Origin: a virus | Reading direction: 5' to 3' (one strand) | DNA: 20,834 nt | IMG/VR virus record: IMGVR_UViG_3300035698_004502 | Location: 1-20,834 of that record | Shown here: piece after piece, positions 7,688-20,827 of the stretch | How positions within the stretch are numbered: the first letter of the stretch is position 1 | Layout: the number at the start of each line of letters is the position of its first letter | Program-made: the position numbers and the translations under genes | The notes under the pieces: generated by a model | Seen by the model: only the letters and a program-made list of their open reading frames with translations | Databases searched by the model: none | Told to the model about the DNA's origin: nothing

Positions 7688-8098
7688 TCAGGGTCCGATT
7701 GTTCCGTGCTCGTCAAGGTCTACCTGGATGTAGACCCCATCCGCTGTTGCAGCCTGCAAGGCCCGGCAGCGGTAAATCTGACCGTCGGTATCCTTCAGGA
7801 CTCCGTGGCCAGTATTGGATGTCCCGATCATGTCACCGATGGCGATGTTCGAGGAGTTGGCGTCCACGAGCAGCCAGGAGCGCCCCGTGGTCTGGCAGGT
7901 GTCGATCTGCCCACTCTCGGGCTTGCCTTGGTTGATGCCCCAGGGAACGTCGGTGGCCGCGTTGGGCACGGTCGCAGTGAGAATGTTCCCGGTGGATGCG
8001 TTCGCGGTAGGCTGCTCGATGAAATGGTACTGGCTGCTGGACAGGTCTGCGGAAGCCTCGAAAGGCAACCCCTCTCCACCTAGTGATACGTTCGCCAT
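7688..8098 (-). CDS. Capsid decoration protein, copy 2
   Basis: The 136-aa product starts at the ATG at 8098 (AGGAG upstream). It is near-identical in length to the protein at 8115-8525, and by hand alignment about 110 of 136 residues match. Conserved features are GLPFEASA, SQYHFIEQPTA, GNILTATV, DVPWGINQGKP, TCQTTGRSWLLVDANS, a GTxxxGHGVLK turn, IYRCRALQAATAD and a VDLDxHGTIGP end. The layout (short N-terminal strand, then a compact beta core with 'GI.QGKP', a 'G..v.VdA' strand and 'G.AL.aATAD') fits DUF2190/gpD-like trimeric decoration proteins that cement the expanded capsid. Position between the protease and the capsid protein agrees. Both copies use different codons throughout, so the duplication is not recent. 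Confidence 0.7.
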   Translation of the reverse strand: MANVSLGGEGLPFEASADLSSSQYHFIEQPTANASTGNILTATVPNAATDVPWGINQGKPESGQIDTCQTTGRSWLLVDANSSNIAIGDMIGTSNTGHGVLKDTDGQIYRCRALQAATADGVYIQVDLDEHGTIGP

Positions 8099-8114: not shown

Positions 8115-8525
8115 TCAGGGCCCGATGGTCCCGTGCTGATCCAGGTCAACTTGGATGTACATGTCGTCAGCGGTCGCCGCCTGCAGAGCCCGGCAACGGT
8201 AGATGTCGCCGTCACTGGATTTCAGAACCCCGTGGCCATCGGCATCAGTCCCTACCATCCCGCCGATGGGAATGTTCGGGCTGTTGGCGTCGACGAGCAA
8301 CCACGAGCGGCCGGTGGTCTGACAGGTGTCAATCGACCCGCTTGCCGGTTTGCCCTGATTGATGCCCCACGGCACGTCGTCCGCATGGTTGCAGACGGTC
8401 GCCGTGAGAATGTTCCCAGACGTCGCGTCGGCAGTCGGTTGCTCAATGAAGTGGTACTGGCTGGTTGCCAGGGACGCACTTGCCTCGAAAGGCAGCCCGC
8501 TTCCTCCCAGGGGTACATTCGCCAT
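8115..8525 (-). CDS. Capsid decoration protein, copy 1
   Basis: The 136-aa product starts at the ATG at 8525, with GAGGAG 8-10 nt upstream. It lies one short gap (16 nt) before its paralogue at 7688-8098. The sequence has the same architecture: GLPFEASA, SQYHFIEQPTA, then DVPWGINQGKP, a TCQTTGRSWLLVDANS strand, GHGVLK and RCRALQAATAD. Differences cluster in loops (for example TDADG against TSNTG, SSDGD against DTDGQ), the pattern of two surface variants on a shared core. Both copies keep cysteines in TCQ and RCR, so the pair could be a disulfide or structural element. I infer a decoration role from family resemblance and location. Two copies might form mixed trimers or occupy different capsid sites. 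Confidence 0.7.
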   Translation of the reverse strand: MANVPLGGSGLPFEASASLATSQYHFIEQPTADATSGNILTATVCNHADDVPWGINQGKPASGSIDTCQTTGRSWLLVDANSPNIPIGGMVGTDADGHGVLKSSDGDIYRCRALQAATADDMYIQVDLDQHGTIGP

Positions 8526-16008: not shown

Positions 16009-16642
16009 GTGGCAGGAGTTCGTGGTGGGGTAGGTCGGTCTTGGGCTCCTGCTCGCGGTGGTGGGCGAGGGCGTCTGCAATTTCATCGCACCACTGCTGG
16101 TCGTTGATGCTGGGAACCCACCCGCAGGCCATCCGGCGCAGGTAGGCCACCGCCTCCACCAGCGGCGCGGGGGCGGGGCCAGTTGTTTCCGGGATGGAAA
16201 CAGTTTCCCACCCCTTGAACGGCGAGCAGTACCGCCCGCACAGGATGATCAGCCGCTCCCATTCGTCGGGCAGCAGCGGGTGGCCCAGCACCAGAGAGTC
16301 GAGCAGCGCGCTGGCCTTCTCGCGGATCTCCCGCAATGGGTCAACAATCGCCTCCAGTTCAGCCTCCAAATCCTTGACCATCTCGGCATGGAACTTCCAG
16401 TCGGATGGTGGCTTCTCCGGTGCCCGCCACTTGCCGCTGCGGTCCTGCAGCGATCCGCACTCGGAGCACCACGCCCCCGCGCCGGGAGCCAACTCGACAG
16501 TGTGGCCGTGGTCGCAGTTGGCCAGCGCCTCCCACTCCGCGATCAGTGCGCTGGCGTAGCCGCACAAGTCGCAGCCCTCGCTCTCGTCACACGTCAGAGT
16601 GGCCCGCAGGTGCTCAATCGTCCGCTCTCGTAGATCACTCAC
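15989..16642 (-). CDS. Hypothetical cysteine-rich protein with zinc-ribbon-like motifs
   Basis: The 217-aa product starts at a GTG at 16642, overlapping the ATPase stop (GTGA) with GGAGG 7 nt upstream. The N-terminal part has C24-x2-C27 (CDLC) and then C43-x-H with C59-x2-C62 (CDHGH ... WCSECGS), a likely zinc ribbon with a 'GAWCSECG' finger often seen in small phage accessory proteins. The middle is helical and acidic (EMVKDLEAELEAIVDPLREIREKASALL). The rest has GRYCSPFKGW, MACGWVP and QQWCDEIADALAHH. I cannot assign a function. It is translationally coupled to the Rad50-like ATPase upstream, so it may work with the recombination genes. Confidence 0.6.
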   Translation of the reverse strand: MSDLRERTIEHLRATLTCDESEGCDLCGYASALIAEWEALANCDHGHTVELAPGAGAWCSECGSLQDRSGKWRAPEKPPSDWKFHAEMVKDLEAELEAIVDPLREIREKASALLDSLVLGHPLLPDEWERLIILCGRYCSPFKGWETVSIPETTGPAPAPLVEAVAYLRRMACGWVPSINDQQWCDEIADALAHHREQEPKTDLPHHELLPLGPMGW

Positions 16643-18558
16643 GCCACCACCTCCGCCCGGATCGGACCCAGGTCGTCGCCCACCAGTACAATCACCGGCC
16701 CGCCAACGTCGGGGAGTTCCTGGCCGGTCACCGACTGCGCTTCGTCCACAAACAGGGGCAGGTAGGGCAGGCCGATGGCGACCCGGATACGGGCACGGAG
16801 CGACAAGCCGCAGCAGATCCCTCGACCCGTGGCGGCCCGCTTGTAGTGCACGCCGTCGAACATCGGGACCACCGCCGGGGACTGCGCATCACCGGCGCCC
16901 CAGACCAAGGTGATCTCGGGGGGGAGCCCCAGGGCCTTGGCCTGACGGGCGGCAATCACGGAAGGAGCCTGGCGGACGGCATTGACCAGCGCCTTCATCC
17001 GGTCAGCCTCGGCAGCCGTGGTGGCTACCAGAGAGTCAGCCTTCGCCAGACGAGCCGTGGCGTTCGACAACTTGCCGCTGGCCTTCAGGGCGATGGCCTC
17101 CGCCGCGTTGTGCAGGGAAAGGGTCTGGTTGGCCTGGTCGATCTCGTCGATGGTGGGGGCTGCCATCTCCGGCGGGTTCGGGGCGGTGGGCTTGTCCATG
17201 ACTGTCGGCTTCGGGCCGATGGACTCGACGGCGCTATGGTATTCCTCGACCGGGATGTTGGCCAGCGCCAGGGCGGAGCGGGCGGTGTCTCGTTCCTGGC
17301 GGGCTACCACCAGCGCGTCGTCGTTGTCGTTGACGAGCTTTGCCGCTGCCTGATTAGCCTTCGACAACCCGTTCATCTCGTTCTGGTAGGCAGTCTCGGC
17401 AGAACGCTTCACCTGCTCAAGGTTGGCTCGCGCTGCGTCCACCTCATCCTCGGCATCCTTCCGCGCCTTCTTGGCTTGCGCCCAAGCCTTGCCACACGTC
17501 CCACACTTGCCATCGTCAGGGGTGCGCTCAAGCGTCTCAATGGCCAGGTGCAGCCTGTTGCGAGCAGCCACAGACTCGGGCCTGTCAGCAGCGATGGGGA
17601 CCTCACGGCACTTCAGCGCCGAGCGATCCTTTTTGACCCGCATGTCCGCCGCGAAGACTTCCAACTCGGCAACCTTGGCATCAGCCAGTCCGAAAGCCTC
17701 CGCCGCTGCATCCACACCCGCCCCATCCGGCACCGGACCCAGGTCGACCATAGCCTTGTTCCACGCCGCCACCTCGGCCTGCTGGTGGTCCCGCTCGATG
17801 ACGGTCGCTTCGTAGCCCGACAGCGCCTCGCCGTACCCGTCGTAGGCCAGCACCGCGTGGTCAACAGCCTTGGCCGCCGCCACAGCAGCAGGGGACACCG
17901 GCTCCGCCTGCTCTGCTTCCAGTTCCTCAACCTGGGTCTGGAGTTCCTCGAAGGCACCTGCGGCCTTGTTCTTGTCGCGGTTCGCTTCGGTGCGCCACTC
18001 GCCGGCCAACTTCTCGGTCGTGGGGTCGGTGGCCGTCATGAAGTGGAACCCGGCGGCCTGCATCAGCGCATCGATCTCCTCCCCGAGATCTTCCGTCGGC
18101 AGCAGCGACTGGAACAGGTCACGGAGTTTGCGGGCGTTGCCCTCCGCGAGATCCTTCCACGCCATCGGAACCATCGCGATCCGGGCCTCGAGCGCCTTCT
18201 CCCCGAGCGGGCCCATGGCCTTGAGCCAGGCACCCTTCGTCTTGAACTTCTCCACGGTGCCGTCGGGAAGCGTCCGGGACCGGGTGACCCGACCGCTTCG
18301 CAGCATCGATGTCGACAGGGTGACCCCGTTGACCAAGGTCATCTCGGACGTCATCTTGTCCTGGCCCGTGCGGATGGCCGAAACCGATGTGACGGTCCCC
18401 CACTGGTCGCAGCCCCACAGGATGTCGCAGGCGGCGGCCAACAGGGTGGTCTTCCCCGTCGCCGTCGGGCCACGCACCGTGGTCTTGCCCTTGCCTGCGA
18501 AGTTGATGTCAAGGGTCTCGTGAGCCCCACGGTTGGTGATGTGCATCGATGCGATCAT
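16639..18558 (-). CDS. SMC/Rad50-like ATPase with CxxC zinc hook
   Basis: The 639-aa product starts at the ATG at 18558, with the preceding stop inside its ribosome site (TAGGAGAACC). Residues 30-38 (GPTATGKTT) form a Walker A loop within an N-terminal RecF/Rad50-type head (MIASMHITNRGAHETLDINF). Long Ala/Glu-rich helices (about 180-310 and 360-430) suggest a coiled coil. A CGTC motif at 352-355 sits near its middle, as in the Rad50 zinc hook. The C-terminal head has a signature-like GRGICCGLSLRAR (579-590) and a Walker B LPLFVDEAQ (600-608). It is shorter than bacterial SbcC. No Mre11/SbcD nuclease gene is in view. It probably supports recombination or DNA-end processing. Confidence 0.72.
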   Translation of the reverse strand: MIASMHITNRGAHETLDINFAGKGKTTVRGPTATGKTTLLAAACDILWGCDQWGTVTSVSAIRTGQDKMTSEMTLVNGVTLSTSMLRSGRVTRSRTLPDGTVEKFKTKGAWLKAMGPLGEKALEARIAMVPMAWKDLAEGNARKLRDLFQSLLPTEDLGEEIDALMQAAGFHFMTATDPTTEKLAGEWRTEANRDKNKAAGAFEELQTQVEELEAEQAEPVSPAAVAAAKAVDHAVLAYDGYGEALSGYEATVIERDHQQAEVAAWNKAMVDLGPVPDGAGVDAAAEAFGLADAKVAELEVFAADMRVKKDRSALKCREVPIAADRPESVAARNRLHLAIETLERTPDDGKCGTCGKAWAQAKKARKDAEDEVDAARANLEQVKRSAETAYQNEMNGLSKANQAAAKLVNDNDDALVVARQERDTARSALALANIPVEEYHSAVESIGPKPTVMDKPTAPNPPEMAAPTIDEIDQANQTLSLHNAAEAIALKASGKLSNATARLAKADSLVATTAAEADRMKALVNAVRQAPSVIAARQAKALGLPPEITLVWGAGDAQSPAVVPMFDGVHYKRAATGRGICCGLSLRARIRVAIGLPYLPLFVDEAQSVTGQELPDVGGPVIVLVGDDLGPIRAEVVA

Positions 18559-18571
18559 GGTATCGGTTCTC

Positions 18572-18712
18572 CTAGAATGGGATGGATTCGTCGTCGAGTT
18601 CCCTCACGGGCGACTCGACAGGGGTGGTGGTCAGTTGGGGCGCGTCGGGCCAGGTGATGATGCCCGCGATACGTCCCTTTCCCATCAGATGCACGATTGC
18701 CCATTCAGTCAT
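18572..18712 (-). CDS. 46-aa mini-protein ending in an SSB-like acidic tip
   Basis: This short frame runs from the ATG at 18712 (GGAG upstream) to a TAG at 18572, 13 nt before the ATPase start. The product begins MTEWAIVHLMGKGRIAGIIT, recalling the 'ELMGH.r.AG.v' opening of a common small phage protein family. It ends in VRELDDESIPF, which resembles the SSB C-terminal tip DDDIPF used to recruit RecO, RecQ, PriA and nucleases. It has none of the OB-fold length of SSB. It lies between the RecT-like and Rad50-like genes. I infer that it could dock host SSB-binding proteins or compete with SSB. The coding call rests on the ribosome site, tight spacing and coherent sequence. Confidence 0.6.
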   Translation of the reverse strand: MTEWAIVHLMGKGRIAGIITWPDAPQLTTTPVESPVRELDDESIPF

Positions 18713-18727: not shown

Positions 18728-18753
18728 GGGGCGCCCGGTCACCCGGGCGCCCC
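18728..18753 (-). other. Perfect 11-bp GC hairpin between annealing-protein and mini-gene
   Basis: GGGGCGCCCGG pairs with CCGGGCGCCCC around a 4-base loop. It lies 7 nt after the RecT-like stop and 15 nt before the mini-gene ATG. No U-run follows on either strand, so it is not a standard terminator. It could stabilise the upstream mRNA end or limit downstream translation. Confidence 0.6.
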
Positions 18754-18760
18754 GGTTGCG

Positions 18761-19816
18761 CTACATGTCTCCGAAGGTGGGCTGGCTTCCGCTGGCTTCC
18801 GCAGCCTTGGCGTCCTGCGCTGCGATGGCGCGGGCTGCCTCCCGATCCGCCTGCTCCTGCAGGTCCGGGCCTGGCTCCCAATCCTCAACCGGCGGGTCCA
18901 CCGGGAGTTCCGGGGCAGCATCGACCACCTCCCCGGTCTCGGACTCCACCACGTCCCCGGCGGGGGTGGTCTCGGTCTTGGGGGCGGCCTTCTTCTTCTT
19001 CGGGGCGGCTGCGCTGCGGACCTTCTCCCGCAGGTTGGTGGGCTGGCCACCCGCCTCCGGCTGCTCGAAGTGGTCGGACACCTGGGCCCGCTCCTGCTGG
19101 ATGGAACTGTAGATCTCTCCCAGCACCGGCACCTCGGCCCACACTGCGGACTCGATGGTGTGACCCAGCCGCGTCTCCAGCATCTCCTTGGTCACGCCGA
19201 TCTTGGCGAAGGTCCCCACGACTGTGCGCATCTTGTCCTGGATGGTCTCCTTGCTCTCGCCGGCCAGGGTCCGCTCGCACCACTTCCGGGCCTGGGCCAC
19301 CAGATCCCCCGGCAGCAGGGCGAGAATGCAGGACCGCTCACGGCGAGCTCCCACATTGGCGGTCATCTCGTAGATGTCCCGCGGGTCGGTGATCTCTGTG
19401 ATGTCGCCATACGCCTTGCGCTGGTGCTTGATCACGAAGCTGCGGACCTCGCGGACGTTCCGTTCCTTGTCCCAGCAGAAAGCCTGCATGTGGCTCTCGC
19501 CCTTCTTCTGCTCCAGCTCCGTGATGCCGAAGTCGAGGTTGCCGTAGCAGCGGGCCATGGCGCGGGCGAGGATCACGGTCTCGCCGGTGATCGTCTTTCC
19601 GCCCTTGGGATAGGCGTAGATGGCGCTTTCGGCCAGGCCCTGCCTCGAGCACTCCCGCTCGACCAGCGCCCAGACCTCGTTGTCGTCTCGGGGGAACTGC
19701 TTGGCCAGGAAGATGGAGCCCTGGACCTCCGCCAGCTGGCGGTTGGCCTCGGCTCCCATCATCCCCTGGGGCTGCGCCTGCGGGGCCATCAACTGCGTGT
19801 TCTTGTTCTCTGCCAT
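18761..19816 (-). CDS. Probable RecT-like single-strand annealing protein
   Basis: The 351-aa product starts at the ATG at 19816, with GGAG 10 nt upstream inside the end of the exonuclease gene. Its conserved core is TITGETVILARAMARCYGNLDFGITELEQKKGES at about 75-107, then AFCWDKERNVREVRSFVIKHQ at 112-131 and TDPRDIYEMTANVGARRERSCILALLPGD at 143-171. I recall this 'GPSIRLAE..A..WGN...G..E' and 'aWD...N' pattern from phage proteins next to YqaJ-type exonucleases. I therefore infer an annealing (RecT/Red-beta superfamily) function. The last 90 residues are a lysine-rich then acidic, probably disordered tail. It is not a RecT with standard motifs, so this stays a context call. Confidence 0.55.
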   Translation of the reverse strand: MAENKNTQLMAPQAQPQGMMGAEANRQLAEVQGSIFLAKQFPRDDNEVWALVERECSRQGLAESAIYAYPKGGKTITGETVILARAMARCYGNLDFGITELEQKKGESHMQAFCWDKERNVREVRSFVIKHQRKAYGDITEITDPRDIYEMTANVGARRERSCILALLPGDLVAQARKWCERTLAGESKETIQDKMRTVVGTFAKIGVTKEMLETRLGHTIESAVWAEVPVLGEIYSSIQQERAQVSDHFEQPEAGGQPTNLREKVRSAAAPKKKKAAPKTETTPAGDVVESETGEVVDAAPELPVDPPVEDWEPGPDLQEQADREAARAIAAQDAKAAEASGSQPTFGDM

Positions 19817-19819
19817 GAG

Positions 19820-20827
19820 CTAGTTACTCCAATGCTTCGGGGTATTTAGTTGGAGCACAGGGGCTCCGGTTTTGCTTGTCTTTCTGGTGGTGGTCAATCG
19901 CCCTTCTCGGGTTTCGATGCCACGGTGCCCACCTATGCGGTGGAGGGCTTCCTGCTTCAACCTGGCCACCGTCTCGATGGCCTCCCACTCTTCGATGCGG
20001 GCAGCCTTCAGCCTACGGACGAACGCCTCGTCGCTGGGGGTGGCCCGGCGGATCTGGTCCAGTTTCATCTCGTGGTGGCGCTTGGCCAGCAGGACCCGGG
20101 CGGCCTTGCTGCCGTCCCACTCGGGCTGGACGCCGCCCACCACATGCTTGAACCACCAGGACCGCGCCATGTCCACCAGAGCCTTCTCGTCGTTGGGGTC
20201 CCGGTAGATGGTGAACGCCCGCTTGTCGCTCTGGTCCAGCACGATGCCAGCTGCCTGATCCCAGGAGCACCCCCTGGCCAGCGCCGACTTGATTGTGATC
20301 TCCGAACCGTAGGGGACAATCCCGACGACCATCTGCCAGACGGGGAGGTTGGTGATCCACAGGGAGGCGTTGACCTGGATCGCATAGTCCGGGTAGGGCA
20401 CCAGCCGCTCTGCATCCAGCCCGAGCGCCTCGTCCCCATGCTCGCCCCAGCCCCGGCGGATGGTGCTGGTCTTGGCCTCTGCGCCCTCGATAGGCACCAG
20501 CGGCTCCCCGTCGAGCACGTAGCCGTCAGGGGTGCACGATGCCCACTTCTCGACCGCGTGCACAACCGTGTGGTCGGTGTTGTGGTAGATCGGCATCCCG
20601 AGATAGTCCGACAGCCAGGTGAGCAGGGGTCCCTCGCAGACGTGACCGCGGACGAAGATGTCCCTCTTCACCTCTGGCTTGGGCTCCGGGTGGTTGCCCG
20701 GGCCTTCCTTGCCTGCCCACACCTTCACCGGGCCGCCAAAGGTGGAGAACCCCAACCCCTGCCCCCACTCGGATGCGCAGTAGTGGCTTGGGCGCATGGC
20801 CAGCCAGGCTTCGTGGGCGGTGGTCAT
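19820..20827 (-). CDS. YqaJ-type viral recombinase exonuclease
   Basis: The ATG at 20827 lies 7 nt from the window edge and no stop precedes it there, so the true start could be further upstream. From it the product is 335 aa. Catalytic-core motifs of the PD-(D/E)XK YqaJ family are visible: G61HVCEGPLL with E65, SCTPDG with D101, GAEAKT with E117 and K119, and YAIQVNASLW with Q151. The C-terminal part is helical and basic (LAKRHHEMKLDQIRRATPSDEAFVRRLKAARIEEWEAI). Such enzymes chew one strand from double-stranded ends to give substrates for the annealing protein coded next. Together they form a Red-like recombination pair. Confidence 0.82.
   Translation of the reverse strand: MTTAHEAWLAMRPSHYCASEWGQGLGFSTFGGPVKVWAGKEGPGNHPEPKPEVKRDIFVRGHVCEGPLLTWLSDYLGMPIYHNTDHTVVHAVEKWASCTPDGYVLDGEPLVPIEGAEAKTSTIRRGWGEHGDEALGLDAERLVPYPDYAIQVNASLWITNLPVWQMVVGIVPYGSEITIKSALARGCSWDQAAGIVLDQSDKRAFTIYRDPNDEKALVDMARSWWFKHVVGGVQPEWDGSKAARVLLAKRHHEMKLDQIRRATPSDEAFVRRLKAARIEEWEAIETVARLKQEALHRIGGHRGIETREGRLTTTRKTSKTGAPVLQLNTPKHWSN

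Follow-up and report, generated by a model that had tools for sequence, protein, structure and literature searches.

The stretch of DNA analysed here (the window) is a phage fragment of 20,834 nt, whose open reading frames were read in all six frames. It carries a tight operon of four genes on the same strand, which encode in order a YqaJ/RecE-like exonuclease, a RecT-like protein, a 46-residue product that we call P0002 and a Rad50/SbcC-like ATPase (Table 1). The original prediction had pointed to a 46-aa frame ending in ELDDESIPF at 18572-18712, lying between an annealing-protein gene and a Rad50-like gene, and had named no strand. The frame is confirmed, it is on the minus strand, and its neighbours are as described, with the phrog_3657 match upstream and the phrog_77 and AAA_23 matches downstream. 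Relatives of the window's RecT-like protein carry the annotation RecT-like ssDNA binding protein, while the exonuclease scores just below the cut-off against PF09588. The Rad50/SbcC-like protein has the CxxC motif KCGTCG, similar to a zinc hook, in its coiled-coil region; it also shows a weak similarity to the PADLOC model LmuB of Lamassu (E 2e-4). Relatives of the window phage were sought through its Rad50-like, terminase or YqaJ protein, and none were found.

Table 1. Features of the operon around P0002 in the window.
Feature	Position	Strand	Evidence or remark
YqaJ/RecE-like exonuclease	19820..20827	(-)	phrog_434, E 1.5e-27; upstream of the RecT-like gene
RecT-like single-strand annealing protein	18761..19816	(-)	phrog_3657, E 4.5e-85; upstream of P0002
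11-bp GC hairpin, perfect, GUGA loop	18728..18753	(-)	between recT and mini-gene P0002
Shine-Dalgarno-like GGAGAA of P0002	18720..18725	(-)	sequence
Mini-gene P0002, 46 aa	18572..18712	(-)	ATG 18712, TAG 18574-18572; codon score like that of the window's other genes
Head motif EWAIVHLMGKGRIAG, residues 3-17	18662..18706	(-)	aligns with strands 1 and 2 of the phrog_29525 barrel
SSB-like C-terminal tip ELDDESIPF, residues 38-46	18575..18601	(-)	no second tip of this kind in the window
AGGAGAA of the downstream Rad50-like gene	18567..18573	(-)	sequence; overlaps the P0002 TAG stop, tight coupling
Rad50/SbcC-like P-loop ATPase	16639..18558	(-)	phrog_77 5e-6, AAA_23 3e-5; downstream of P0002

P0002, whose translation is MTEWAIVHLMGKGRIAGIITWPDAPQLTTTPVESPVRELDDESIPF, is a real phage gene. 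When codon statistics trained on the window's other genes were applied to it, it scored 0.26 per codon, a value inside the range of real genes (of true stretches of 46 codons, 37% lie below it) and above that of every off-frame 46-codon stretch in the window. A longer version of the frame would begin with a GTG at 18742. The ATG is the likelier start, because GGAGAA lies nine bases 5' of it (counted from GGAG) and because the GTG sits in the loop of a hairpin. This hairpin reads GGGGCGCCCGG-GUGA-CCGGGCGCCCC; it has no T-run, and the folding of a 71-nt stretch that includes it gave an MFE z-score of -2.7. It may act in mRNA processing or stability.

P0002 ends like bacterial SSB (PF00436), whose tip is DDDIPF: acidic residues lead into a C-terminal I-P-F. 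Among all stop-to-stop segments of 20 aa or longer in the six frames of the window, P0002 alone ends in this way. The OB fold of SSB is absent: no SSB HMM matched in the window and no Pfam model matched P0002, the hits to Pfam 'Bombesin' and phrog_15659 being below significance. P0002 is therefore no SSB, since the OB core is missing, as the original prediction had held. Direct searches with the 46/56-aa frame gave no homologue by tblastn in phages and, in viral contigs, 49 pattern matches and no relative. An AlphaFold2 (AF2) model of the 46 residues alone has low confidence (pLDDT 69, pTM 0.18), with short strands at 4-7 and 17-20.

The head of P0002 leads to a family. Its pattern, EWAIVxLMGxxRxAG, corresponds to the start of phrog_29525, a phage and prophage family of uncharacterised function that includes gp57 of Ochrobactrum phage POI1126. 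The first bait for this family was influenced by the window's head; it found real phage proteins and phrog_29525, and for that reason it was swapped for real sequences. We then worked with 49 family loci from viral contigs and 18 from genome contigs, and with an HMM of 54 non-redundant members of 102-157 aa that left P0002 out; all members in the working alignment (53/53) match phrog_29525. In the window, P0002 is the sole match to this HMM, with 23.6 bits as an ORF and 24.3 bits (E=6.5e-7, among all window segments) as a stop-to-stop segment, the next segment having an E of 2.3. On 6,475 segments of other DNA the maximum was 6.8 bits, one true family member aside. The alignment covers residues 2-21 of P0002 only, and PHROGs' own phrog_29525 model did not report P0002.

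What P0002 shares with the family is the N-terminal strand pair, with the motif [EQ]WAxVExxGHxRxAG (more precisely, [EQ]WAxVE[LV][MF]GHxRxAG), and an acidic C-terminal tail, which in the family often has an SSB-like end. The remaining barrel strands (xRVDVP ... T.xYGxxAIYxxT) and the helices are absent from P0002, and whereas family members have a five-stranded barrel with helices, P0002 can be aligned for about 20 residues. Because nothing aligns past residue 21, we regard P0002 as a truncated relative of phrog_29525 and not as a full member. The POI1126 protein (L032 3959-4306) is annotated as an acetyltransferase; it is a small barrel of the phrog_29525 type and probably mislabelled.

For full-length members the prediction is a small beta-barrel with helices after it and, at the C-terminus, an acidic tail that is disordered. 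The AF2 model of one of them (L056), made with the family alignment, has five strands, two helices and an acidic end of low confidence (pLDDT 89, pTM 0.70). Foldseek with this model against solved structures and viral folds gave no significant match, the weak nearest ones being ribosomal L19, Lsm and Hfq, and searches of the family members against Pfam and PDB sequences gave no convincing relative. Unlike the OB fold of SSB, the family barrel is predicted without a helix between strands 3 and 4. P0002 would consist of the barrel's first hairpin and the tip, with strands 3-5 missing. We scanned 2.9 million viral contigs with a degenerate pattern for short genes that combine head and tip, and it matched one other short form (L078/L107, the same contig) and two full-length members, one of them ending in DNDIPM; a version with a longer spacer had no match. 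Three further loci (L079-L081) carry a 35-aa truncation with no tip. Since so few short forms were found, P0002 is a rare derived form and not a family of its own. The other short form is a 48-aa family frame (L078 5962-6108) in which barrel strand 3 runs directly into DDLPF, the protein ending in VRVDDLPF; because it has no ATG, GTG or TTG start, it is possibly decayed.

Because the members were collected by their N-terminus, their tails are independent evidence, and SSB-like tips recur among them. A terminal P-[FYLW] is present in 19 of the 54 members vs 5 of 645 other ORFs of the same loci (Fisher p 8.5e-19), an enrichment of about 70-fold by odds ratio. The strict form, an acidic residue followed by [ILVM]-P-[FLYW], is found in 10/54 members vs 2/645 control ORFs (p 2e-10), and the last 12 residues contain on average 5.0 acidic residues in the family vs 1.4 in the controls. 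Examples are DDDIPL, DDDEIPL, DDEIPL, DDEDIPY, DEDIPY and DDDMPF, as well as DADPIPF, DPIPF, DDGMPF, EFEVPF and DDDRPF; DDDIPL belongs to L049 and DDDMPF to L056. A terminal P-[FYLW] is missing from about two thirds of the members, and some have a plain run of acidic residues at the end; the tip is thus frequent in the family without defining it. The original prediction had staked its case on homologues sharing a D-D-x-x-I-P-F end, and the outcome is divided: the acidic tail is kept by most members, but the P-[FYLW] end by about a third and the strict tip by fewer. When the tip is mapped on a tree from which the tails were left out, 15 changes are required, of which well-supported branches force at least 6, and the tip is unclustered; this scatter points to repeated gain or loss and not to one inherited relic. 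At one locus with a family member, a different, 93-aa non-SSB protein (L092 3081-3362) ends in KDKDEDIPF.

The genes around the family members form a mixed early set of helicase, HNH, ParB, integrase, exonuclease, SbcC-like, RusA and one RecT. Of 44 family-bearing phage records, one has YqaJ, and within 6 kb of the family genes there is neither a RecT of the phrog_3657 type nor a match to the Rad50-like or the YqaJ-like protein of the window. The expectation that the tip would be conserved next to YqaJ and annealing genes thus did not hold, and given these mixed neighbours the link to a recombination cassette belongs to this window only. A PF00436 SSB was found in none of the 45 family-bearing phage records (L031-L109) vs 7 of 24 phage contigs that carry a relative of the window's RecT (p 3e-4), a control that may itself be rich in SSB. 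In one Pleomorphomonas genome, an SSB gene and the family gene are some 1 kb apart.

We also compared family tails with the tails of host SSBs, taken as the PF00436 matches in genomes that hold a family member. Most of these end in DDDIPF, and those of Frankia type in SDEPPF or SEEPPF. The most striking case is L087. In the bacterial class of its genome, SSBs mostly end in [DE]FD.[ST]DPFAD[EQ] (DFDDSDPFADE, for example), and the family protein ends in SDDFDDPFRNE, the best of the 54 family tails against the SSB of that class (score 21, the next 12). Family members of Frankia type have the ends FDDEGPF and DDEEAPF, and the same order also has DDEETTF, DEDPEF and EWPS. Over 22 genomes, true pairing of tails compared with shuffled pairing gave p 0.005-0.02 for the last 5-8 residues and 0.18 for the last ten; with the L087 genome left out, the pairing was not significant (p 0.12-0.38). 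Host matching is therefore one striking case plus a weak trend, noticed after the fact. In the class of MAG PMG_196 (L121, L131-L137), most SSBs have the lineage-specific tip [DE]FD.[ST]DPFAD[EQ] instead of DDDIPF.

In bacteria, the docking hub for DNA repair and the restart of replication is the SSB tip, which is also an antibacterial drug target and has RecO, PriA, ExoI and RecQ among its partners. In the form DDDIPF it serves many proteins of repair and replication as their docking ligand, its terminal Phe lying in a pocket of the partner (PMC5872125). The tail of the family could present this ligand, acidic residues with Pro-Phe at the end, to SSB-interacting proteins and their pockets; these may be host proteins such as RecO, PriA, ExoI and RecQ, or the annealing protein that the phage itself encodes. 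Such partners might be recruited to phage DNA or be competed off host SSB; the direction of action could be either. Two precedents, together with what is known of tip and pocket, lead us to propose this role. In phage HK620, annealing and recombineering by Sak4 need NDYPPF, the last six residues of the neighbouring SSB; a tip and a phage annealing protein come together there as they do here, but that tip sits on a true OB-fold SSB (PMC5928155). The PriB-SSBc chimera, a stronger stimulator of PriA than either PriB or SSB, joins a small nucleic-acid-binding barrel to an SSB tail as in the family, but it is man-made and its PriB has an OB fold (PMC8509808). A caution for any inference from a tip comes from Deinococcus DdrB, likewise a non-SSB protein described with an SSB-like C-terminal motif, which is unnecessary for radioresistance; DdrB itself is a ssDNA-annealing protein of a different fold (PMC3834827).

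Our preferred reading, to which we give about an even chance, is that P0002 is a stripped-down member of the tip-bearing family phrog_29525 that would offer an SSB-Ct-like ligand. As a first beta-hairpin plus a tip, it would be nearly a free peptide working next to the RecT-like protein. The original prediction had seen a free tip peptide fused to an 'LMG..R.AG' head. The head does belong to a real family, and one rich in tips; the free peptide does not extend to the full-length relatives, in which the tip stands on a small beta-barrel. A broader proposal is that phrog_29525 is a widespread class of small barrels from phages and prophages, each bearing a copy of the C-terminal SSB tip of its host lineage. 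These barrels would stand in for a phage SSB by capturing the SSB-interacting proteins of the host, with P0002 as the minimal form; this is tentative, and it is rather more probably wrong than right. The similar tips on many full-length relatives suggest that phages borrow SSB tips in order to engage DNA-repair proteins of the host.

Other explanations have to be weighed against this one. The acidic tail could instead be an intramolecular DNA mimic that shields the nucleic-acid surface of the barrel, the terminal hydrophobic residue being minor and no host SSB partner being involved. Acidic C-termini shield nucleic-acid surfaces in Hfq and SSB. For Hfq, autoregulation by the acidic C-terminal domain is known (PMC5606850), and in the family acidic tails are more general than the Pro-Phe end, with a weak, non-significant likeness of the fold to RNA-binding small barrels. 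A generic mimic, however, does not need the terminal P-F that is so enriched here, nor does it account for an L087 tail that follows the odd SSB ending of the host class or for a P0002 that kept the tip while most of the barrel is gone, and we consider it unlikely. The tip might also serve the phage's own annealing protein, with the upstream RecT-like protein docking on it as HK620 Sak4 does on SSB. The gene order in the window and the dependence of Sak4 on its NDYPPF tip (PMC5928155) agree with this, and in phages with relatives of this RecT, true SSB genes, most of them tip-bearing, lie downstream in 5 of 6 SSB-positive loci (L004, L005, L014, L024 and L030). It is in keeping with this that the window has no SSB, a point to be read with the window being a fragment, so that an SSB may lie outside it. 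Family members elsewhere do not adjoin this type of RecT, and we consider this explanation unlikely.

A different view is that P0002 is the remnant of an internal deletion in a full-length gene, functionless or merely coupling the translation of the Rad50-like gene. The loss of barrel strands 3-5, the existence of truncated relatives (L078 with 48 aa, and L079-L081), the lack of a close homologue of P0002 in any search and the overlap of its stop with the next Shine-Dalgarno all fit; we nevertheless doubt it, since the codon score is fully gene-like, the ribosome-binding site is good, the tip is intact and exactly at the stop, and L078 independently retained a head plus a tip. Finally, a short ORF could combine a family-like head and an SSB-like end by coincidence, which we hold to be very improbable. 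Only some 20 residues align, PHROGs' own model is silent, and the family was sought for its likeness to the P0002 head; against this stand the HMM E-value in the window, with the next segment so far behind, the rarity of the strict tip in the controls, and the coincidence of two independent features in a single 46-aa gene.

If the reading of P0002 as part of a tip-bearing family is right, a phage family with an SSB tip on an unrelated barrel, in one case in the unusual version of the host class, would be a natural mimic of SSB-Ct, and it would give a direct route to the SSB partners that phages need or must disarm. An unknown PHROG, with one member labelled as an acetyltransferase, would also gain a testable role. 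Our search of the open-access literature turned up neither a description of this family nor one of a natural phage family of non-SSB proteins that end in such tips, and the PADLOC models had no match for P0002 or for two full-length members of the phrog_29525 family. Elsewhere in the window, two adjacent 136-aa genes on the minus strand (7688-8098 and 8115-8525) are paralogous and represent a tandem duplication, probably of a structural gene.
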